Shown piece by piece: positions 2,461 to 64,000 of a DNA stretch of 64,000 nucleotides. The notes under the pieces are model-generated. The model searched no databases, was not told where the DNA came from, and was given only the letters and a program-made list of their open reading frames with translations. This stretch comes from Saururus chinensis (taxonomy: Eukaryota; Streptophyta; Magnoliopsida; Piperales; Saururaceae). The translations under genes were made by a program, and so were the position numbers. Numbering within the stretch: position 1 is the first letter of the stretch; the number at the start of each line of letters is the position of its first letter. The DNA is taken from NCBI GenBank assembly GCA_035235625.1, contig CP141150.1, positions 26,490,756 through 26,554,755 of the forward strand, in the 5' to 3' direction.

Positions 2461-3177
2461 AATTCAACAGAGAATCTTTAAATGCCAAATATGCATCTAG
2501 AATGTATCCTTCGCACATGGGAGACTAGCAATCAGTCTCTAAGCATAGGAAACACTAAAAAATCTACTGCTTTGTTAGTTTATAAACTATATGATTTACA
2601 ATAAAAATAGAGGAAAAATAATACTTACATATAAAAATAAATATATATATACACCCTAATAATCTCCTCAGCACCCCAATAACTTCATAAAACCCCATCA
2701 TGAATGTTATGAATAAAACATGGTACTAAGATGATTAGTGAGGTGTATATATAAAAACTCATGAGTTTTATTTGGATATGTGCTCAAGTTAACTTTATGT
2801 GATTACGATGTGAATACCACTATCTATAAAAAAAGGGTAATTTACAAAGAGTAAGGATGACGTGTATCCAACGTAGTCTCTTCCGGGAAATTTCACTTCA
2901 GAAGTGTTCTCCACCGGATCACCGCTCTAATGGTTTCCAGCTTATCTCCTCCGCCCAGTCACGTGCAGCACCACCTGCCCGTTGCCATGTTCGGCGCAAT
3001 ATAATAAAGAAATACCATTTAAAAATGAAATCATAAAGTATACTCCACATGGTGTGTCCCTTACGGCCTTAGCCTGCCCCTGCCCATGATTAAACCTGCA
3101 TATTTTACAACGTGAATATTGATAAACCCAACAAGATTGTCAAACTATAGACTGCTACTCTAAGGAATTCCTGATCC
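2461..3177 (+). promoter_or_regulatory. Upstream region of the sulfotransferase gene, with a G-box
   Basis: Non-coding sequence before the start codon. A palindromic G-box CACGTG lies at 2960-2965, about 215 bases upstream of the ATG; such ACGT-core sites bind bZIP and bHLH factors and are common in stress- and hormone-responsive plant promoters. A TATA-like AATATAATAAAG lies around 2998-3009. The transcription start is not determined, and assigning these sites as functional is inference. Confidence 0.35.
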
Positions 3178-4173
3178 ATGGCTACTCCATCTGTTGATGC
3201 TATTCAATCAAGCTTCGGTGAGGAAAGTCTGAGCCAGGAATCAAGAGAACTCCTCTCAAATTTCCCCAAGGAAAAAGGATGGGCCACCCGATATCAATAC
3301 AATTACCAAGGCTGCTGGTTCGTACCCAAATGCTTATTTGCAACGATGGCCTTTCAGGAACACTTCCAAGCTCGAGACACCGATCTGCTCATCGCCACCC
3401 CTATGAAGTCAGGTACAACATGGTTGAAATCACTTGTCTTCTCCACCATGAACAGGTTCAAATACTCTCTCAGTGGCCACCCCTTGCTTCAAAACAACCC
3501 ACATCAGTTGGTTCTTATGTTTGAGTTTGAGTACTATGCAAATGATGAGACACCGGACCTAGACAGCCTTCCATCGCCTAGGCTGTTTGGGACGCACCTC
3601 CCATTCCATTTGTTGCCCAATTCGTTGAGGGAATCCAAGTGCCGAATTGTGTATTTGTGTAGAAACCCTAAGGATAATTTTATCTCCATGTGGACGCAAT
3701 TCGAGAAGTTGAGGCCTAAAAGTCTTGGGCCCTTTACATTGGAGGAGGCGTTAAAGTCCTTCTGCAACGGGTCCTCATTGTTTGGTCCATATTGGGAGCA
3801 TGTGCTGGGGTACTGGAGAGAGAGCCAGGAAAACCCAGCAAAGGTGTTGTTTTTGAAATATGAAGAGATGATGAACGACACAACATCTCATTTGAAGAGG
3901 ATTGCTGATTTCTTAGGCTTCCCATTTACTGCAGAAGAGGAGGCTGAAGGGACGGTGCATGAAATAGTCAAATTATGTAGCTTTGAGAATTTGAGCAGTT
4001 TGGAGGTGAACAAAACTGGGTTTCTTCCGTCTGGTGTCCCAAACAGTACGTACTTTAGGCTGGGCAAGATCGGAGACTCGGCTAATTATCTTGAGGCAAA
4101 TATGGTAGAGAAACTGGATCAAATCATGGATGAAAAGTTACAGGGATCAGGGCTCTCTTTGGATGGGTCTTAA
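3178..4173 (+). CDS. Plant cytosolic sulfotransferase (SOT family)
   Basis: A complete 331-residue intronless reading frame, the usual length and structure for plant soluble sulfotransferases, which move a sulfonate group from PAPS to hydroxyls of small molecules (flavonoids, brassinosteroids, hydroxyjasmonates, desulfo-glucosinolates). All core motifs are present: the 5'-phosphosulfate loop TPMKSGTTW (residues 74-82, Lys77), the catalytic His of FGTHLPF (His140), the 3'-phosphate motif YLCRNPKDNFIS (159-170, Arg162 and Ser170), and the C-terminal RLGKIGD (294-300). No signal peptide or membrane segment, so cytosolic. Odd point: the residue after GD, usually Trp in the consensus RKGxxGDWKN, is Ser here, and Lys of RKG is Leu. 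The substrate cannot be read from sequence. It stands alone, with transposons on both sides, and looks functional. Confidence 0.93.
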   Translation: MATPSVDAIQSSFGEESLSQESRELLSNFPKEKGWATRYQYNYQGCWFVPKCLFATMAFQEHFQARDTDLLIATPMKSGTTWLKSLVFSTMNRFKYSLSGHPLLQNNPHQLVLMFEFEYYANDETPDLDSLPSPRLFGTHLPFHLLPNSLRESKCRIVYLCRNPKDNFISMWTQFEKLRPKSLGPFTLEEALKSFCNGSSLFGPYWEHVLGYWRESQENPAKVLFLKYEEMMNDTTSHLKRIADFLGFPFTAEEEAEGTVHEIVKLCSFENLSSLEVNKTGFLPSGVPNSTYFRLGKIGDSANYLEANMVEKLDQIMDEKLQGSGLSLDGS

Positions 4174-17987: not shown

Positions 17988-17996
17988 TATATTTGT
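17988..17996 (+). repeat. 9-bp target site duplication, left copy (TATATTTGT)
   Basis: TATATTTGT lies directly before the left terminus and is repeated without mismatch at 24418-24426 directly after the right terminus. A 9-bp duplication is the hallmark of Mutator-superfamily insertion. Confidence 0.9.
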
Positions 17997-20115
17997 GAAA
18001 AATTTTCAGAAATAGACTCAACAAATGTCGGAAATACACTTTTAGGCCAGGAAAGTTGATTTTGCACAATTAGACTTACGCACGTTTGAGTTTCCCACAT
18101 GCGCACTGGAAATACTGAAATAACCCCTCCATCATAATAGAGGTGAAAAACTTCATCATTTCTAACACGATGGTTTCTTCCCGGACAAGCTGCCTCCCTC
18201 TTCTCTGATGCCCTCATCTCCTCTATCGTCTTCTCCCTCATCTGCTCGTCTCTCATCTCCTCCGCCGGCGTTTTATCCCCATAAAGTGGAGAGGTTCAGT
18301 GAGTATTCTTCCCGGACAAGCTGCTTCCCTCTTCTCCTCCGCCCTCATCTCCTCGTCCCACCCTCCTCTTTCTCGTCATTCTCTCTGTCTTCCTCACCAC
18401 CAACCCCACCGTCGTCCAGTATCAAGTAAGAGCCTTTGCATCCCCATGTTCTCCGTGGTTTTTGGTTTACAGTTGCGAGTTCTAATCGCCCCCTATTTCT
18501 GATTTTTGTCGAATTTGCAAACTCCCCATTCAGGCCCTGTTCGCACCTACGTGAGTCGCACATTCTTAGCTTTGAAATCCAATGCACTAAAGACCCGGAT
18601 GGATCTCATTCACAAGCAGGCCACCGACCACATCGGGCTCATCAACGCTTACACGACATACACCCGGAAGTTGCAACTGAACAACTCGAAGCAGCTCAAA
18701 ACCTTTGAAGATTTGGCACAAAATTTCTCCGATCTCACCTTGCGGGCCCAAGACAGGAAGTCCCTTATTGAGACTAATGACTGCCATTTCATCTAACATT
18801 GGAGAGTATTTGTCGCTACATGTTCTGTAAGAAAGTTTATTTTTTACTTGCATGACTAATGTGAGTGCTTGGGCCAATGAAAGATATGGGGCAAAATGAC
18901 TCCATGCCCAAACATTTATGGTCAACTGTGAGTGCTTGGGCCAATGAAAGATATGGAATGCTATGAGTAGTTAGTTCCAGAAATCACCTTCTGTGGATTA
19001 GCATTCTCGTACTCAATAAACTCCACATATTTAGTTTGCTACCAGTTTATTTCAACAACCACTTGATTTAAGGTCAACTGTGAGTGTAGTTAGTTCCAGA
19101 AATCACCTTCTGTGGATTGGCATTCTCGTACTCAATAAACTCCACATATTTAGCTTGTTGCCAGTTTGCTCTGTACTCTATTCATTTTCCTCTGTGCATT
19201 GTTCGTTAAATTGGAGTGTCCATTTTTTTCTTGCACTTCAAAAAGTGAGTGATGGGAGGTTACATAAGAACAATATATATCATTTGTTTTACCCATATTT
19301 TGAAGGTTGTGATCTTATTTCTAGCAAGGAGGAGACCATATACAGTAGTTTATTTAGATAAAAAAAGTTTACTGATAGGGCCTAACTGTTGACTAGTAGA
19401 TGTAATGAGGCTTTTTTTTTTTGCAAAGTGTATTGTGTGGTCATTAGATTTTATTAAGTTAGGTATATACATAGGTAGATAAATAAGCATGTATGCGAAT
19501 TATATTGCCAAATATATTTAATGTGTTTTGTGATTAGTATGTATGTCTTTGATAGATAATAATAAATGCAAAGTAATTAACCGTGAATGCATTTTTTGTG
19601 GTTAGGCTAAGTAAGAACAATATATATCATTTGTTTTACCCATGTTTTGAATGATGTGATCTGATTTTTATCAAGGATATCATATACCTTAGTCTATATG
19701 GATAATTATAAGTTAACTGATAGGGCCTAATTGTTGACTGATAGATGTAAGGAGGTTTTTTTTTCAGAGTACATTGTGTGGTCTTTCGATTTGATCATGT
19801 TAGGCTTATATATGAGTAGATAAATAAACGTGTATATGAAAAAATATATCATTAGTTTTACCCATGTTTTGACTGATGTGATATGATTTATAGCAAGGGG
19901 GAGACCATATAACCTAGTTTGTATAGATTAGAGGAAGTTAACTGATAGTGCTTAATTGTTGACTGGTAGATGTAAGGAGGCTCGTTTATTTGAAAAGTAC
20001 ATTGTGTGGTCATTAAATTTGATCAAGTTAGGCTAATATATGTGTAGATAAATACGCGTGTATGTGAGTTATATTCTCAAACATATCTTGTGTGTTTGGT
20101 GCTTAATATGCATGC
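17997..20115 (+). repeat. Left terminal inverted repeat of the Pack-MULE
   Basis: It pairs with 21846-24417 in reverse complement. The inner edge is the shared GCTTAATATGCATGC (20101-20115 and 21846-21860). The left arm is about 450 bp shorter because it has fewer of the ~345-bp internal units. Confidence 0.9.
18340..18796 (+). pseudogene. GAUT9-like galacturonosyltransferase N-terminal fragment, left TIR copy
   Basis: An exon-like piece ending at a GT donor (18426) encodes a hydrophobic anchor (LLFLVILSVFLTTNPTVVQY). After a ~108-base intron the next piece, about 18534-18796, encodes RTYVSRTFLALKSN, TRMDLIHKQATDHI and INAYTTYTRKLQLNN, then KQLKTFEDLAQNFSDL, and stops. This matches the N-terminal membrane anchor and stem region of GAUT8/GAUT9-type Golgi galacturonosyltransferases of pectin synthesis. 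The GT8 catalytic domain is absent, so no enzyme can be made. The same fragment lies inverted in the right TIR. Confidence 0.75.
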
Positions 20116-20470
20116 CCTTTGGGTGTTCCTATGTTATATGATTGAATTCACCTCGAATTTATTTTGTTGTTGCCCTTTGGGTGTTCGTATAGATGAAAAA
20201 TTGTTGATCAGGCTATATAACCTAGTTTATATGAATTAGAGGAAGTTAACTAACATGGCTTAATTGTTGACTGGTAGATGTAAGGAGGCTTGTTTATTTG
20301 CAAAGTACATTTCGTGGTCATTAGATTTGATCAAGTTAGGTTTATATATGTGTAGATAAATAAGTGTGTATGTAAGTTATATTGTCAAATATATCTTGTG
20401 TGTTTGGTGCTTAATATACATGCCCTTTGGGTGTTCCTATGTTATATGATTGAATTCACCTCGAATTTAT
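19240..20470 (+). repeat. ~345-bp tandem subterminal units, left arm and adjacent unit
   Basis: Repeating blocks share 'TTTACCCATGTTTTGA', 'GTTGACTGGTAGATG', 'ACATTGTGTGGTC' and 'GTTTGGTGCTTAATAT'. Copies start near 19267, 19612 (partial), 19838 and, beyond the TIR edge, 20200. A direct duplication (about 20102-20208 versus 20411-20520) also carries the start of the GST exon ('CCCTTTGGGTGTTC'), so part of the captured gene was duplicated with the unit. Confidence 0.75.
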
Positions 20471-20750
20471 TTTGCTGCAGCCCTTTGGGTGTTCCTACAG
20501 ATGAAAAAATGTTGAACAGAGCAAAGATAAGCTGACCAAAGTGTTAGACATTTGTGAAGAGTGGCTCTTGAAGAGCAAATACATGGCTGGGCAATTCTAC
20601 AACTTAGCTGATCTTACCCATCTCCCCTTCACTCAGTTTGTTGAAAATGACATTGGATTGGCTTACATGATAAAGGACAAGAAACATGTGAAAACATGGT
20701 GGGAGGACATTAGCAACAGGCCATCTTGGAAAAGAGTTCTTGAGCTTTAG
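20470..20750 (+). pseudogene. Phi-class glutathione S-transferase, C-terminal exon fragment
   Basis: The intact 3' part (20541-20750, ending in TAG) encodes a GST C-terminal domain: KVLDICEEWL, KSKYMAGQFYNLADLTHLPF, YMIKDKKHVKTWWEDISNRP and SWKRVLEL. This is the typical GSTF end, including the 'S.ADL.HLP' helix and the 'W..RPAWK' box. The 5' part (20470-20540) shows VPTDEKML and EQSKDKL in two different frames, so there are frameshifts, and the N-terminal thioredoxin fold with the catalytic Ser is absent. Lying in the unique centre of the Pack-MULE, it is a captured exon. GSTs conjugate glutathione to electrophiles; this piece cannot. Confidence 0.85.
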
Positions 20751-21845
20751 ATGTTCATTTTACTTCGCTGAAACTTTGGTGAAAAATGGTGCTTCATTAC
20801 TGCAGTGAATATGGGGCATTATTTTGACCGATTTCGTTTCTGTAACTCCTTTTTGTTTTCTGTGAATTGATGAATATTGGGAGATGCTGCAACTTCATGG
20901 ATTGTTCAAGATGTATTTTGATTGACATAATATAATCAAAAGAGGATTTGGTTCAATAAATGATATGCCTTTTATTATTGCCTTTTGAAATAAAAGTACA
21001 TGTTCTTGAGCTTTTCATTGCGTTCTAGGAACACAAATCGACCAAGAGTAATGCTAATTGCACCAGCAGCCTGCGAATGCCTCCAGCAGGAGCAATAATG
21101 AGATCATGCATCACTGCACAGATGCAATGAGCGCTCATGTGTGCTAACCAAAGTAACATTTTCAATTGAGAAAAACCAAATAGCCTTGTCCAACGGCACC
21201 AGCAAGCGGACTATTAAATTGATGTTTCTTGATCACAAGAAGAGTTAATTTATACCGAAATTCTCATGCCTTTTGTAGCAATATCCTGATAAACAAATAT
21301 GAAATTAAAATAAATTTATGTATCTTGACCATGAATTAAGAAATTACTGTACAAATATTCATTTTTTTACTTTTTATTTTTTGCACTAACATTTCTCAAA
21401 TTCTAGGACCATCGCTTTTGTCGAAGCTTGGAGATTGATAGATCTGCTCCTCCAAATCCATCCATGATTGCACTAGCTGAAGGAAACTCAGCTATGGAAG
21501 TAAAACTGCAAAAACACACGAAACAATAAAGCGCAAAACAATCTCAAGTAGAGAATCTGGTGGTAAAAATTAACCCCACACCGAGTGTGATCCTGAAAAT
21601 GCACGTACATCTTAATGAATCTAACTCATAACGCTTGTACGAGGCCTTGCCCACCAACAACTGCATCTTATTGGGATCACAATAGTTGCGAGAAGTATAG
21701 CAGCATATATAGCCTTGAAAATATCTCATTCCCTTCAGCCCAACAAAAACGTTGATTGGAAACTATTCAAACAAGGTACAAAAGACATGAATATTGGCAC
21801 ATACCTACTCCTAAGAATACAAAGACAAAATGTAGTATATCAATT
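20751..21845. other. Pack-MULE centre after the GST exon
   Basis: It begins with sequence that looks like the GST 3' UTR. A minus-strand frame at 21544-21729 (with NYCDPNKMQLLVGKASYKRYELDS) is protein-like but not recognised. It could be a further captured piece of 5' or unknown coding sequence. Confidence 0.35.
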
Positions 21846-21855
21846 GCATGCATAT

Positions 21856-23240
21856 TAAGCACCAAACACACAAGATATGTTTGACAATATAACTCACATA
21901 CATGGTTATTTATCTACACATATACAAATGTAACTTGATCAAATTGAATGACCACACAATGTATTTTGCAAATAAACAAGCCTCCTTACATCCACCAGTT
22001 AACAGTTAAGCCCTATCAGTTAACTTCCTCTAATCCATATAAACTAGGTTATATGGTCTCACCCTTGTTATAAATTATATCACATCAATCAAAACATGGG
22101 TGAAACTAATGAGCTATATTCTTCTTACTTAGCCTACCAATAAAAAATTTATTCATAGTTAATTATTTTACATCTATTAATATCTATCAAAGGCATACAT
22201 ACTAAGCACCAAACACACAAGATATGTTTGAGAATATAACTCACATACACATGTATTTATCTACACATATATAAGCCTAACTTGATCAAATCTAATGACC
22301 ACATAATGTACTTTGCAAATAAACGAGCCTCCTTACAGCTACCAGTCAACAATTAAGCACTATCAGTTAACTTCCTCTAATCTATACAAACTAGGTTATA
22401 TGGTCTCCCCCTTGCTATAAATCATATCACATCAGTCAAAACATGGGTAAAACTAATGAGCTATAGTTTTCTCACTTAGCCTAGCAATAAAAAATACATT
22501 CATAGTTAATTACTTTACATTTATTTATATCTATCAAAGGCATGCATACTAAGCACCAAACATACAATATATGTTTGACAATATAACTCATATACACGCT
22601 TATTTATCTACTCATATATAAGCCTAACATGATCAAATCGAAAGACCACACAATGTACTCTGAAAAAAAAACCTCCTTACATCTATCAGTCAACAATTAG
22701 GCCCTATCAGTTAACTTATAATTATCCATATAGACTAAGGTATATGATATCCTTGATAAAAATCAGATCACATCATTCAAAACATGGGTAAAACAAATGA
22801 TATATATTGTTCTTACTTAGCCTAACCACAAAAAATGCATTCACGGTTAATTACTTTGCATCTATTATTATCTATCAAAGACATACATACTAATCACAAA
22901 ACACATTAAATATATTTGGCAATATAATTCGCATACATGCTTATTTATCTACCTATGTATATACCTAACTTAATAAAATCTAATGACCACACAATGCACT
23001 TTGCAAAAAAAAAAAGCCTCATTACATCTACTAGTCAACAGTTAGGCCCTATCAGTAAACTTTTTTTATCTAAATAAACTACTGTATATGGTCTCCTCCT
23101 TGCTAGAAATAAAATCACAACCTTCAAAATATGGGATATATTGTTCTTATGTAACCTCCCATCACTCACTTTTTGAAGTGCAAGAAAAAAATGGACACTC
23201 CAATTTAACGAACAATGCACAGAGGAAAATGAATAGAGTA
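21856..23240 (-). repeat. ~345-bp tandem subterminal units, right arm (4 copies)
   Basis: The block 'AAGCACCAAACACACAAG' and its variants recur at about 21856, 22206, 22552 and 22893, a period of 341-350 bases. These are the same units as in the left arm, inverted. Confidence 0.8.
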
Positions 23241-23617
23241 CAGAGCAAACTGGCAACAAGCTAAAAATGTGGAGTTTATTGAGTACGAGAATGCCAATCC
23301 ACAGAAGGTGATTTCTGGAACTAACTACACTCACAGTTGTCCTTAAATCAAGTGGTTGTTGAAATAAACTGGTAGCAAACTAAATATGTGGAGTTTATTG
23401 AGTACGAGAATGCTAATCCACAGAAGGTGATTTCTGGAACTAACTACTCATAGCATTCCATATCTTTCATTGGCCCAAGCACTCACAGTTGACCGTAAAT
23501 GTTTGGGCATGGAGTCATTTTGCCCCATATCTTTCATTGGCCCAAGCACTCACATTAGTCATGCAAGTAAAAAATAAACTTTCTTACAGAAGATGCAGCC
23601 ACAAATACTCTCCAATG

Positions 23618-24070
23618 TTAGATGAAATGGCAGTCATTAGTCTCAATAAGGGACTTCCTGTCTTGGGCCCGCAAGGTGAGATCGGAGAAATTTTGTGCCA
23701 AATCTTCAAAGGTTTTGAGCTGCTTCGAGTTGTTCAGTTGCAACTTCCGGGTGTATGTCGTGTAAGCGTTGATGAGCCCGATTTGGTCGGTGGCCTGCTT
23801 GTGAATGAGATCCATCCGGGTCTTTAGTGCATTGGATTTCAGAGCTAAGAATGTGCGACTCATGTAGGTGCGAACAGGGCCCGAATGGGGAGTTTGCAAA
23901 TTCGACAAAAATCAGAAATAGGGGCCGATTAGAACTCGCAACTGTAAACCAAAAACCACGGAGAACATGGGGATGCAAAGGCTCTTACTTGATACTGGAC
24001 GACGGTGGGGTTGGTGGTGAGGAAGACAGAGAGAATGACGAGGAAGAGGAGGGTGGGACGAGGAGATGAG
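23618..24070 (-). pseudogene. GAUT9-like fragment, right TIR copy (inverted)
   Basis: Reverse-complement copy of the left-TIR fragment, with only a few substitutions (for example TDQIGL instead of TDHIGL, and YMSR instead of YVSR). With the left copy it forms a long inverted duplication of host coding sequence. A read-through transcript could fold into double-stranded RNA matching GAUT genes; that is inference. Confidence 0.75.
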
Positions 24071-24417
24071 GGCGGAGGAGAAGAGGGAAGCAGCTTGTCC
24101 GGGAAGAATACTCACTGAACCTCTCCACTTTATGGGGATAAAACGCCGGCGGAGGAGATGAGAGACGAGCAGATGAGGGAGAAGACGATAGAGGAGATGA
24201 GGGCGTCAGAGAAGAGGGAGGCAGCTTGTCCGGGAAGAAACCATCGTGTTAGAAATGATGAAGTTTTTCACCTCTATTATGATGGAGGGGTTATTTCGGT
24301 ATTTCCAGTGCGTGTGTGGGAAACTCAAACGTGCATAAGTCTAATTGTGCAAAATCAACTTTCCTGGCCTAAAAGTGTATTTCTGACATTTGTTGAGTCT
24401 ATTTTTGAAAATTTTTC

Positions 24418-24426
24418 TATATTTGT
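24418..24426 (+). repeat. 9-bp target site duplication, right copy (TATATTTGT)
   Basis: Identical to 17988-17996; it flanks the right terminus of the Pack-MULE. Confidence 0.9.
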
Positions 24427-24477: not shown

Positions 24478-25690
24478 AGCAATGGATCAGTGAGTTGGTT
24501 TTACTTTTTTCAAAGATTTTATAATTCTGTTCTTGTAAGTACTTATGTGCTGACACTATATTTTTACCTTTACAGGTATAGGTGATTAGGGAAGTTGGTT
24601 ATGGTATATTTGGGAGTGTGTGGCTAGCAATGGATAAGCAGTCTGGTGAAATTGTAAGTGTCCTAGTCATGGACATTTTGATTGGTATATGTCAAATAAC
24701 ACTTTATCTTTATAATTATTGGTCATAAATTTTACATGTTGCAATCAAGATAATGAAGAAGAAGTATTATTTGTGGGAAGAGTGCATGAATCTGGGGGAA
24801 ATGAAGGTATAAAGCTGTTGATTCATTCTTTAAGTAGTAAATATGGGTTTCAATTATTTTACATAAATTTTTTTTCTCGTGCAGTCCCTATGGAAAATGA
24901 GCCATCCTAACATTGTGAAGCTCAAGGAGGCCATTAGAGAAATTGATACTTTGTATTTCATATTCAAGTACATGGTGAGTTGAAGAAAGCTTTTACATCT
25001 GTTATGCAATTTAATCACTTATGAAAAGAATTTACATAGAGATTCTTTTTTTTCCATTTGCTTTTGAATCTGCTTGATTTTGGATCATCAATTCAGGAAT
25101 GCAACCTCTACCAGCTAATTAAGAATTGATGCAAACTATTTTTGGAGTCAGAGGTGAGAAATTGGTGCTTCTAGGTGTTTCATGCTCTTGCCTACATGCA
25201 CCAGAGGGGATATGTAGAATATGAAGTAAGGATTATTTAAAGGTCTTTTTGCTAGTTCAGATGTTTTTCCTTCTTTCTTTTGTTTTTATTTTTGTCTTTA
25301 GTGTGAGCTATTTGTTTGGTTCAATTCCTAGGAACTTGTTTTGTACCTATTTTCTTCATGATGATTTAGGAATTATGTTCATGAACTTGTATGCATATTG
25401 TACTGAATATTGATTATTTTTTGATGTAGAAGAAATTAATCCATTTATTTTACATGTCATAGATGGTTTCATTTTAATGTTTTAAATCATATTGATGCTT
25501 CTTACATGCGAGTTTTGCTTCGCAGAGAATCTATTGGTGACATATGATATAATCAAGATTGCATATTTTGGTCTTGCATAAGAAGTCGGCTCTGAGCCTC
25601 CATTTATAGAATGCTAAACTCATGATCTCCATTTTGGGGCTCTCCAACTTTTTTCATCGCCATCTTGTTGGGAGCGAGTGTGAAAGGGTG
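24478..25690 (+). pseudogene. CDKF/MHK-type protein kinase gene fragment with introns
   Basis: Six exon-like pieces in order match plant MAK-like kinases (CDKF-4/MHK type). A first exon ATGGATCA at about 24482. 24576-24653 is the glycine loop, VIREVGYGIFGSVW, after a one-base loss. 24739-24806 has the VAIK-type Lys exon (KIMKKKYYLWEECMNL), with its acceptor AG mutated. 24885-24974 has [19 protein letters not shown]. 25097-25214 has ECNLYQLIKN, a stop, then VRNWCF and ALAYMHQRGY. 25526-25690 has ENLLVTYDIIKIAYFGLA, where the DFG Asp is Tyr. The HRDLKPEN exon is incomplete. Several stops, shifts and the lost DFG make it dead. Introns are retained, so it came from genomic DNA, not mRNA. Confidence 0.82.
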
Positions 25691-25920: not shown

Positions 25921-26570
25921 TTGGAGCAATATTACTCTAACTTTACCAAAATATTGCTCTAATGTTGGAACAATATTACTCTAACCTTGCTGCAATATCA
26001 CTCTAATTTTTGAGCAATATTGCTTCAACCTTGCCGCAATATCGCTCCAATATTGGAGCAATATTACTCCAATGGTGCAGCAATATTGCTCCAAACTTGC
26101 CACAATATTGCTACTGTTGCAGCAATATTGCTCCCATGTTAGAGCAATATTGCTCCCATGTTGGAGCAATATTGCTCCAACCTTACCGCAATATCGCTCG
26201 AATTTTGGAGCAATATTGCTCCAACCTTGCCGCAATATCACTCTAATGTTGGAGCAATATTGCTTCAACATTGCAGCAATATTGCTCCAAAGTTACAGCA
26301 ATATTGCTCCAACCTTGCCGCAATATTGCTCCAACCTTGCGCAATATCGCTCCAATGGTGGAGCAATATTGCTCATAACATTGCAGCAATATTGCTACAA
26401 TGTTGGAGCAAGATTGCTCCAATGTTGCAGCAACATTGCTCGCTCCAATGTTGCAGCAAGATTCATCTAACCTTGCCGCAATATCACTCTAATGTTGGAG
26501 CAATAGCAATATTGCTCCAACATTGCAGCAATATTGCTCCAATGTTGGAGCAATAATGCACCAACAATGT
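25921..26570. repeat. 22-nt palindromic tandem array 2 (longest)
   Basis: About 29 units of the GCAATATTGC plus TCCAAYRTTGGA type, period 22 nt, with variants CCTTGCC in the spacer and ATATCGC or ATATCAC in the core. All long open frames here on either strand are products of the repeat and should not be called genes. Confidence 0.9.
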
Positions 26571-28345
26571 AGCATTATTTTACAATTGCAATTATTAAAT
26601 TGAGTGTAATAAATGACAAATATAGTTGATGATTCCTTACTATTAATTTGTTTCATATATTTACAATTTTAATAGTGGAAGTCAGCACATTAAAATGGTT
26701 GGTATAGCAATAGTCATATTGAACCTTTTGAAAAGGATTAATTTGTTTCATATGAAGTGTTTTCAAGTGATAATTTACAGATGGAACTTTTAAATTAAAT
26801 TTCAAAACCAGAGTTAGTTAAAGCTTTGATGATCACGCTTAAATCATCTTTTGACATCCTCTTGTTCCATTCTTCAACATTTGTTTGCTTCTATGTACCA
26901 ATTCTCCACCATGTGAATAAACTTTTTCCTAGAATGTGGGTTCAAGAAACAAGAGTACTTAAAAATGATTTAAGGCTTTCTTCATGCTATAGATGAGGCA
27001 GCAGTTCATGCACATGCACAAATATGCTAGATTAACAAGTATATTACATATATTTCATGAAACTACAATTGTGCTTTAATATAATGCAAGTTACAAAATT
27101 GTGCCACAATTGACTCCAGTAAAAACTATTTTACATATTTAACCCGAGAAGAACATCAGCATAACCCCTCTAACCCTCAAGCAACTTCATATTTTGAACT
27201 CTTTGCCTTTAAACTTTGTATTGATCTGATAAAAAATAACTTAATCACAATATTGTTAATTGCAGAAGTAGCGGCACTAGAAATCTTGGTGTCATTCCAA
27301 ACAATATCACATATTGATGGTAGAATTAATGGGATATTATAAAAACAACATGTAAATTGGTGTCTTCTTTGCTCAAACCATTACCATTCCCTATAACCTG
27401 TTCGGCTATTTCAACCTACAAAGGAGTCCTCCCAAAACCGGCAATTAGAACCAATATTTATAGCAGATATTTACAGTTTTAATTGTGGAAATCATTGCAA
27501 AAAAATTCATCATAAATGGTCAGTTCAGATAAGAAATCTTTGTGCAATTCATCAGACAATGAATGATGACATTGTAAAATTTGGCAAGTCTAACCTACAA
27601 CACACACTTTAGAGCCGAATTCCAATGCTTAGAGGGAAAAAAGTAGGGATGTGGACAGATCTACATAGGTTCTGAAGGAGCTCATTGAGTTTGAATATAG
27701 CTTTGTCAAAGTTCTGCACAAGGCATAGGGTCACTGTAAATAGAGGATATACCCTGGTTAATTCAAATGGATGTCACAGTTCAATTGAAATAGTTTATTG
27801 TAACACAAAGAAAGCACAAAATGACAACCTCATAAAGCCTTAGAAACAAGTTCAGTTGAGAAAATAAGAAGCTTCATATCAATAATTTTCTAAACAATAT
27901 TTCTGCGAATCAAGCTAATAAATTATGAAAAAAAATCAAATATCTTATGGTCCAAATTAAGTCTGCCTCAATTTCCCAACTGCATAAGTATTAGTACTTG
28001 CTTATATCTGTTCCACATACATTTCAATTTTAACCCAATGAAACAAATAGTACTATAAAAATCTGGTCTTATTCTGCAGATTGCTTCTTGTCCTGGTCTC
28101 TTCCCAAAAATTAAATTTTCATGCATGTCACCTTCAATGATAATTCAAAAAGTGGGACAATTAAAGGTTAAAAGAAAATTCCAACAAGGGCAATTCTATA
28201 GTTCTATAACACAGAGCAGATCACAATGTTCCTAAGTTCAAAAAGTGAATATCAGTATAAACATAAATGGTGGATCACACAAAAACACCTAAAAAGGTTT
28301 CAAAAATCTCAAGAATATATAATAGCTGATGGAATAAGAACTCCT
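26571..28345. other. MULE interior, no recognised gene
   Basis: AT-rich. The first ~220 bases are the inner TIR block paired with 32600-32725. Further exons of the importin fragment would be expected here on the minus strand, but I could not identify any. Confidence 0.35.
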
Positions 28346-30176: not shown

Positions 30177-32350
30177 TTGAGGTGGCTGAAACATTGGGAT
30201 ATGAGGTCCAAGCTGCAATTGAGTAAATGAGGCAGGAGATTGTTGAGTGATTGGACTTGATTGCTTTTTTTGCTTTCTATGTCACTCAAGGCAAGCCCTC
30301 TTCCTCGCAGCTGCTTTACCACCACGAGCACGTTTCTCCCGTATTTTTATCCCTGATGCAGCTACCTCAATATTTTTTTCATTGATATCCTTTTCTACTT
30401 GGGTCTCATGCATATTTGCAGCATTAGCTTGAAGCTCATTTTGATGAGTTTGCTTCAATTCCTCATCTATTACTTGGGAATCAATATACGTGACAACTCC
30501 ATGAAGCTTGTTCCCATAGCCTTATGTGGGTCGGTGTCACTAGCTATTGAAGTTGAATTCGTTATATCCTGAACTTTTGCATCTCTTGACCACCGTCTAA
30601 TTATGTATTGAGGAGGGAGCATCTTCACACATCTATTATCAAACACTTTCAATGAATGGCTGCATAATATTCCTGAAAATCCAAACTTCTTACAACTGCA
30701 AACAACCGTGTGATCTTGTAAATCAAATGTGACATTGTGTTGACCATGTTTTCCTACAACTTTGAACTCCATTGTTGTTCCTTTCTCTATATATTCATAA
30801 ATTTCACAATCCAAGTGATCTTGATACTCAATTAAAAATATTTCAAAAGCTATTGGGGTATATATTTTTGTCGCTTGTGCTAACATTTTAGAAAACAAGA
30901 GTAATCTAGGAGTTCTATCCAACATTTTAAAGTCAGCTTGCAACTCTTGAAATAGTCGATCATCTACTAATCTATCAAAATGATGAAGAAACCCCATGGG
31001 GTTTATTTTAGAAGTTACATACCTCCTCAAAATATTGTTCATAGATTTATTGTGTTGTGTGGACTTCATTCCCACACAAAAATGATGTCGACCATACGCC
31101 ATAGCCCATTTATCTTTCTCATGAAATAACTGAAGCAACCAAGGATGATCTTGAAGTGTATATTTTTAAATCATCATATTCCATCTCTCTAAGAACTCGT
31201 CCTTTGTTTCAAACTCAAATATGCATTGTTTTAGATCTCTTGCAAATGACTAAAACTTTTCAAAAACATGGCTGAGATGTTTAGCTGCATTCTGATATAT
31301 ATGCCATATACATAAGCGATGATGGCTTTCTGGCATAACAACTGGAATAGCTTTAGCCATTGCTGCACATTGGTCTGTAATGATAGTAATCAGTTTCTTA
31401 CCAAACATTGCCACAAGAAAAGTCTCAAGTAACCAAATAAAAGAATCAGCAGTCTCATCATATAGCAAGGCAGCCCCAAACATGGTATTTTGTCGATGAT
31501 GATTTGCACCAATGAACAATGCACGTGGCCAATTTATGTTATTAGTTCTATACCTGGTATCAAAGCTGATCACATCCCCAAAATTCTCATAGTCTACTAT
31601 CATCCTCGCATCTGCCCAAAAGATATTAGTTATCAGACTATCTTCATCTAATGCATTGAGTAGAAGAAAAATGGATTATCCTTTTGTTTTCTTTTAAAGT
31701 ATTCTAACAAAGCCACTGCTTCTCCTTTTTCCATCACCTTTTGATGCTTAGTACGTAAATAATTTTTCAGATCCAATGCAAGAAACCCTACATTTTGTTG
31801 ACCACCAACTTGGCTTGCTTGCAAAGCTATAGAATCTATGGGTGGAATGCCTACACTTGCCGCTGAATCAGTCAACACAGATTGAGACGTACTCATGCGT
31901 CTATGTGAATTCAAGAATGGAACCTTTGTTGGGGTCACAACCATGTGATTATGACTTGGCTCAAATTCTACGATTTTATATATGTCACCTACAAGCTTGA
32001 TAACCATCAAAGCTAAACAACCAATTCTTGTTTCTCGATGAGGATTCTTCACGACTCTATTTCTTTTATCTTCAACTCTTTTACCTTCTTTTGAACAACA
32101 AAAGCTTCGCATCCTAATTATGCCATCTTTTTTCCATTTCCATCCTCTTCGAATGCTAAATCCAATTTTTGCACTATAATCATTGTAGAATTTGTAAGTC
32201 ATCTCCTCTGTTGCAAACTCCATTCCAATATTTGGTACTCTTTCTTCTACTTCATGAAAGTCTAATTTCCGACAAGCAAAGTTTACTTAGGTCCCTATTT
32301 GAATGTCATTTTGTCCATCACCTTCATCATGCCCATCACATCAAGACTTG
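30177..32350 (-). pseudogene. FAR1/FHY3-type Mutator-like (MULE) transposase, decayed
   Basis: Reading down the minus strand: the FAR1 N-terminal DNA-binding domain (32223-31990; MEFATEEMTYKFYNDYSAKI and the Cys/His residues in RSFCCSKEG, RIGCLALMVI and PSHNH). Then, after one frameshift near 31655, NIFWAD followed by the DDE domain (31603-31160): catalytic Asp of ISFDTRYRTN, second Asp of IITDQCAAMAKAI, HRLCIWHIYQNAAKHL, and Glu of DEFLERW. Then a SWIM zinc finger, CSCKKFGFSGILCSHSLKVF (about 30711-30652). A C-terminal tail continues in another frame to about 30177. Two in-frame stops (TAG at 31250, TAA at about 31165) plus two shifts make it a pseudogene with all catalytic residues recognisable. 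It would have mobilised MULEs with 8-11-bp target duplications. Confidence 0.9.
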
Positions 32351-63301: not shown

Positions 63302-64000
63302 TCAGGCCCTCCCTCCCAAAAGAAGCTCGTCCTCGAGTAAGAAAGCTTGTGCACTAGTAGTCACAAGAGGAATTGGACCAAAATAAGTGAACAGATATGA
63401 GACATTAAATGTCTTGGAAATGATGTAATGAGCAGGGAGGTTGACCACATAAGCATTGTTATTAATGCATTGCAAAATCTGAAATGGACCTACTTTCCGA
63501 GGTGTGAGTTTATTGTGATGAACAGCAAGGAGTCTTTCCTTATGTCGGAACACCATAACATAGTCTCCCACCTGAAACAGTTTTTGCCTTTTCTTCTTTT
63601 CAACTGTAGCTTTGTATTGAGCTGTGGCATCAAGTGAATGTTGTTGGACTGCTTGATGGACTGAAATCAAGTCTTGAACAGTTTTATAAGCTGTGCTTGG
63701 CTCTCCTAATTGCTTTGACAGCTGAACTAAATCCAACAAGATGGAACCCATATAGGATTTCAAAAGATGCCTTGCTAGTGGACTTGTTGGGTGTAGGGTT
63801 AAAGGCAAATTCAGCTTGTGAGAAAATGAAGTCCTATTACTTAGGAGCATCACCCGTGAGGCTTCTCTGCAGGTTTCCCAAAGTTCGGTTGACTCCTTTA
63901 GTTTAGCCATTATTTTGGGGTGGCAAGTGTTGTTGAATTGTAAAGAAGTACCCAACCTCTTCTATATTGACTGCCAAAAGTGACTTAGAAACTTGTCCCA
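63302..64000 (-). pseudogene. Ty3-gypsy polyprotein 3' end (integrase C-terminus), runs off the window
   Basis: On the minus strand the last ~115 residues are in one frame: KKRQKLFQVGDYVMVFRHKE, KLTPRKVGPFQIL, NNAYVVNLP and ISKTFNVSYLFTYFGP. This is the C-terminal SH3-like part of gypsy integrases ('F.vGD.V.v....r....KL.pr..GPf.il......aY.v.LP......vFnVs.L..y'). Upstream (63735-63960) the family pattern (FSQAEFAFN, NGxTKGVNRTLGNL, ASFEILYG) lies in another frame, so there is a frameshift, plus a stop in place of Gln. The protein ends LEDELLLGGRA then stop. The element extends right of the window. Confidence 0.85.

Follow-up and report, generated by a model that had tools for sequence, protein, structure and literature searches.

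A stretch of 64,000 nucleotides from Saururus chinensis (assembly GCA_035235625.1, contig CP141150.1, positions 26,490,756–26,554,755; hereafter the window, C11:26490756-26554755 of the 516-Mb, 11-contig genome searched) contains at 17997–24417 a 6,421-bp element that is best explained, with high confidence, as a non-autonomous Mutator-like element (MULE) of the Pack-MULE type that has a fragment of a host gene within its inverted ends and whose origin would have followed the course proposed below. No transposase is present among its 17 open reading frames of at least 60 amino acids, and it carries host fragments with recognizable donors, i.e., a galacturonosyltransferase (GAUT)-type gene on C10 and a glutathione S-transferase (GST) region probably at C3:50.96–50.99 Mb. 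The GST fragment lies between the terminal inverted repeats (TIRs), and the GAUT fragment lies inside both arms. An earlier note on this DNA had proposed a Pack-MULE insertion, which is upheld by a target site duplication (TSD), empty sites, dispersed copies and host gene fragments.

Structure of the element and its insertion site

The element is flanked by a perfect 9-bp TSD (TATATTTGT, 9 of 9 positions, at 17988–17996 and 24418–24426), a length within the 8–11 bp typical of MULEs, and its termini are identical and in opposite orientation. The left arm (17997–20119, + strand) is about 2.1 kb and the right arm (21846–24417, – strand) about 2.6 kb long; both these lengths and the 9-bp duplication agree with the earlier note, the lengths when the inner, repeat-rich parts are counted. 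Positions 1–1843 of the left arm and 1–1830 of the right arm are 98.05% identical and differ at 23 of 1,830 ungapped columns. The inner portions of both arms consist of tandem units of about 350 bp in unequal number, and the right arm is longer because it contains more of them (array at 21838–23135; period about 347, 3.8 copies).

When both flanks of the element were joined and used as a query against the host genome, two empty paralogous sites were found, on C7 (query 3–700) and C5 (query 171–700). Each matches at 91% across the junction, lacks the element and, in the stretch retrieved, has TATATTTGT once, as the earlier note had required of a MULE insertion. A C3 paralogue aligns with both flanks but leaves the junction between them unmatched, and is uninformative on the insertion. 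The flanking sequence belongs to a duplicated kinase gene, which we take to be CDKF/MAK-like. The start of the broken duplicate lies at 24482–24990 (+ strand), with the old ATG at 24482, 64 bases past the right end of the element. On inspection by eye, the reading frame of the C7 copy stays open across its first exons, and the window and C5 copies have a common one-base loss after the start; the copy in the window is a pseudogene, and the element is therefore located 64 bases ahead of a pseudogene's old start codon.

Kinship with transposase-coding MULEs is indicated by two parts of the arms. The outermost 106 bp (left, 17997–18102, + strand; right, 24312–24417, – strand) and an inner arm segment (element 1090–1843; 19086–19839, + strand) are common to a class of relatives with a methyltransferase piece in their ends, which includes transposase-bearing members. 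Identity to this class is 83–91% for the outer 106 bp, among the matches listed that begin at the end, and mostly 91–94% for the inner segment, with one match of 82% over a longer stretch. The outer approximately 100 bp and the inner arm are likewise common to the element and the mudrA-bearing loci L022 and L023. The mudrA of L023 has DBD_Tnp_Mut, MULE and SWIM domains and at least 42 matches in the genome search, and that of L022 is recognized by DNA match. In the stretches read, L022 and L023 have the methyltransferase block at one end. DNA searches of the genome scored the best 40 of 945, 40 of 83 (GAUT fragment), 40 of 374 (mudrA of L023) and 40 of 72 (Methyltransf_29 block) candidates, so that counts are lower bounds; for the GST segment, 10 of 10 candidates were scored.

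Capture and spread of the GAUT-type fragment

The captured GAUT-type fragment occupies 18359–18782 (+ strand) in the left arm and consists of 67 nt of exon 1, the 95-nt intron 1 and 262 nt of exon 2. The copy in the right arm (23632–24055, – strand) is 98.6% identical to it. The earlier note had placed such a fragment in both TIRs, at 18340–18796 on the left, which is close to the measured span. The left copy gives a gap-free alignment of 424 bp, at 90.3% identity, with a C10 gene (L029) that has a 391-amino-acid open exon with a Glyco_transf_8 domain; the fragment has thus diverged from it by 9.7%. The name GAUT9 is presumptive, the analysis showing a Glyco_transf_8 domain in the C10 donor and nothing narrower; Pfam and PDB searches with the fragment itself gave no meaningful match.

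The fragment is present in at least 21 copies in at least 13 element-like places. All 21 element copies form one clade (100/98), for which the nearest outside row is L029, and the sharp edges of the capture are identical in the three copies aligned base by base (both arms of the window element and L009). None of the 21 copies retains the AG of the intron acceptor. One clade, shared edges and the included intron 1 indicate, at the level of sequence, that a single capture from the C10 gene at the DNA level is ancestral to all 21 copies. GAUT-like places L030–L033 fall farther out than L029 in the fragment tree. They are other duplicates of a GAUT-type gene, of which at least L030 and L031, by eye, exceed the captured fragment in length and are broken.

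Duplication of the fragment inside the TIRs, which the earlier note had described for one element, extends to eight: the window element, L009, an element at C4:33.28–33.30 Mb, L013, L014, L016, L017 and L018. A further four places (L010, L015, L020 and L034) have it at one of their ends, as far as the retrieved stretches go. Among the eight, the TSDs, which were read by eye, match at 9 of 9 positions in two (window and L013), at 8 of 9 in three (L009, the C4 element and L018, where the TSD falls in a run rich in A) and at 7 of 9 in one (L017). In a tree of the outer approximately 800 bp of 20 ends, three of the eight (window, L016 and L017) have their two arms grouped together with starred support. 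Within the C4 element, which is 12.8 kb long, a Peptidase_C48 (Ulp1) piece is present in a GAUT-ended element (L011 3442–3783, + strand); it recalls the Ulp1-carrying MULEs mentioned in the available part of a 2026 gene-capture review (PMC13317346).

The GST core, a second terminal cargo and exchange of ends

The core of the element (20452–21846, + strand) contains at 20541–20750 (+ strand) the last exon of a phi-class GST, in accordance with the GSTF exon that the earlier note had seen in the centre. Its 69-amino-acid frame matches GST_C (E 2e-7), and its best relative among solved structures is GSTF9. The core is common to GAUT-ended L009 and L010 and to methyltransferase-ended L021 and L027 (in part also L026 and L028), with identities to the window of 98% for L009, 94% for L010, 93–95% for L021 and 85–88% for L027. 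The GST segment occurs in 10 places of the genome. Eight lie within elements, namely the window element and L009 (GAUT ends), L010 (GAUT at the one end seen) and five methyltransferase-ended elements. The other two lie on C3 near 50.96–50.99 Mb, where neither terminal cassette is found among the matches listed and where one of the segments stands within a 148-amino-acid open frame; this region is probably the GST donor.

Relatives with the same outer approximately 106 bp and inner arm have another block, of about 800 bp, at the place of the GAUT fragment. A putative donor of this block is a gene at C1:58.90 Mb, which matches it at 76% in DNA and at 88% over 34 residues; Methyltransf_29 exons are recognized at four places of this locus, some with stops counted in the frame. 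On these matches, the C1 gene is the likely donor of the methyltransferase piece. The identity of the terminal block derives from this donor gene, since Pfam gave no match for the methyltransferase-like frames in L023 and L025 themselves. The block is present at both ends in at least five places, C7:17.94 Mb (L021, TSD 8 of 9), C3:8.67 Mb, C4:32.67 Mb, C2:50.15 Mb and C1:21.36 Mb, and all five also contain the GST segment.

From element position 1270 of L023 inward, two further loci align collinearly with it at about 93% identity, L015 for some 6.2 kb and L034 for some 5.9 kb, but both terminate in the GAUT block, unlike methyltransferase-ended L023. L034 adjoins a full-length mudrA match and L015 has part of one. 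Because the GST core occurs with both types of end, and the interior of L023 recurs in L015 and L034 with the other type, the ends behave like exchangeable cassettes. As judged from the alignments, the simplest reading would be that recombination within the common inner arm swaps the terminal block. L015/L034 have exchange junctions other than those of the window group, a difference that two exchanges, or one exchange followed by deletion, may have produced. A more general proposal, which we consider evenly poised between right and wrong, is that the family has a terminal cargo slot, in which pieces are taken up near one end, copied to the other, kept alike and traded between lineages. If so, cassette exchange would make the TIRs, normally regarded as the constant part of a transposon, the part that varies. 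Alternative host-gene cassettes at the ends of MULEs were not met in the literature searched, where subscription papers were mostly outside coverage, and cassette exchange is possibly the new part of the finding.

The course of events proposed for the element is as follows. An ancestral element took up 424 bp of the C10 GAUT-type gene at the DNA level, and the piece spread to at least 13 places. The cargo-bearing end may have been copied, inverted, onto the other end via gap repair or template switch, an arrangement comparable to that of maize Mu killer, and lineages may have swapped ends by recombining in the inner arm that they share. The transposase of a relative would have moved the element in trans into the 5′ part of the duplicated kinase gene copy.

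Other accounts of the arms fare poorly. Long, near-identical inverted arms would also be produced by a recent inverted segmental duplication involving no transposon, which we regard as practically negligible: this is refuted by the two empty sites with a single TATATTTGT, and the perfect TSD, the further copies spread over the genome with TSDs of their own and the transposase-bearing relatives that have these outer ends in common also speak against it. Independent entry of the GAUT piece into each arm is highly improbable, since the same two junctions occur in both arms and in L009, and the 21 copies form one clade; no support for such separate entry was found.

Several observations weigh against the proposed origin of the family. 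The core tree, meant to order the exchange of ends, does not separate GAUT-ended and methyltransferase-ended elements. The copy in L019 is internal (3172–3586), between short TIRs and within a perfect 9-bp TSD, so that GAUT copies are not all terminal. L014 and L016 have no recognizable TSD. Pairing of the two arms is weak in L009 (83/73), the arm tree decides neither for nor against it in L013, L014 and L018, and in the C4 element a split at 88/81 separates the arms, contrary to pairing. The data fit alike either the copying of one end onto the other at the birth of the element or later gene conversion between ends. The one-ended cargo of L023 and L034 is a single match among the best 40 of 83 and of 72 candidates, the far ends being beyond the stretches read, and at C3:8.67, C4:32.67, C2:50.15 and C1:21.36 Mb the two-ended state is judged only from paired matches in opposite orientation.

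Function of the cargo, other features of the window and known systems

The GAUT cargo is most likely a passenger without host function. In the earlier note, silencing was suggested: a transcript across the element would fold into long double-stranded RNA with GAUT sequence and could silence pectin-synthesis genes in trans. On this model, read-through transcripts would be processed into small interfering RNAs (siRNAs) that act in trans on GAUT genes. Sequence identity leaves some room for this, since the arms are 98% identical over 1.84 kb with the GAUT piece inside, and the window element has 41 perfect 21-mers in common with the spliced C10 gene (1 to 28 in each of the other seven elements; 64 for all eight together), with 208 of 289 exonic 21-nt windows in register having at most two mismatches. 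There is also a precedent in Mu killer, a natural inverted derivative of MuDR that silences MuDR (PMC3440606, in the part available). However, the fragment is 9.7% diverged from the C10 gene, the kinase gene copy next to the element is a pseudogene, and according to the available text on Mu killer its read-through transcripts are sense and not involved in silencing, although longer ones may contribute via hairpins (PMC3440606). Such silencing is, on balance, unlikely. Retention of the piece by selection as a coding part, e.g., in a chimeric protein, is very unlikely. The exon-2 stretch is without a stop in 17 of 21 copies, and without a stop, gap or insertion in 12 of 21, and the sense frame gives an omega of 0.64–0.66 (19 of 21 copies; twice the log-likelihood difference, 6.8 to 8), the fixed model of the comparison having been run at one kappa and on a kappa grid. 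Against this, one of three antisense control frames gives an omega of 0.53 with a value of 15.4, and the acceptor AG is gone from every one of the 21 copies. Since the antisense signal is larger, an omega below 1 in the sense frame is not specific and is not counted as selection; purifying selection on the captured exon was thus rejected.

Elsewhere in the window, three adjacent frames at 30470–32223 (– strand) have FAR1, MULE and SWIM domains and represent a FAR1/MULE-type transposase or a transposase-derived gene. An open 331-amino-acid sulfotransferase frame lies at 3178–4173 (+ strand). Downstream of the kinase pseudogene, an array of an 11/22-bp unit (25950–26579) is covered by two long open frames. 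A frame with a Tf2-1-like SH3 domain at 63302–63955 (– strand) is probably part of a retrotransposon polyprotein.

A single capture, known donors, empty sites, one- and two-ended forms and two alternative cassettes together make it possible to test, across related species, in what order capture near one end, copying of the piece to the opposite end and exchange took place. If siRNAs were found, the family would also serve as a natural experiment on the silencing of host genes by the arms of a transposon. The mode of host-DNA uptake by MULEs is described as still unexplained in the part of PMC3310237 available.

As far as the available parts of the cited papers go, the kind of element is already known and gene pieces in transposon ends have been published before (PMC2572040, PMC3310237). 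The earlier note had held that captured genes usually lie between the TIRs; the GAUT piece does lie inside them, but the departure from known elements was overstated, gene pieces in ends having been remarked on in section 4.2 of Ferguson and Jiang, 2012 (PMC3310237). A search for literature on galacturonosyltransferase together with Mutator-like elements returned unrelated titles only. The element resembles Pack-MULEs in its 9-bp TSD, long TIRs, intron-bearing host fragments, more than one donor and lack of transposase, and differs in that one donor piece is within both TIRs rather than between them. In the portions of each source at hand, four other systems are comparable. The multiple- or extended-TIR MULEs of Ferguson and Jiang, 2012 also have long, repeat-containing TIRs; there the TIRs are in tandem, whereas here a single long arm contains a gene piece and tandem units (PMC3310237). 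The TIRs of Galileo in Drosophila are likewise lengthened by tandem repeats and recruited non-TIR sequence, but Galileo belongs to the P superfamily and the recruited parts are its own or other transposons' sequence (PMC4168063). In maize Mu killer, both TIRs come from one end of a mudrA element (MuDR), in inverted orientation; the inverted part is transposase sequence with no host gene, and silencing has been reported for it (PMC3440606). The arms of the window element are near-identical inverted copies of each other, and may come from one end. Turmoil-1 of Caenorhabditis elegans, a Harbinger element, has host gene fragments in both inverted terminal repeats, one with an intron and a dead splice site, for which its authors propose a capture hotspot; it differs in its superfamily, in a TSD of usually 3 bp and in being found as one full copy and eight fragments, and alternative end cassettes are not reported in the part of that paper available (PMC2572040).

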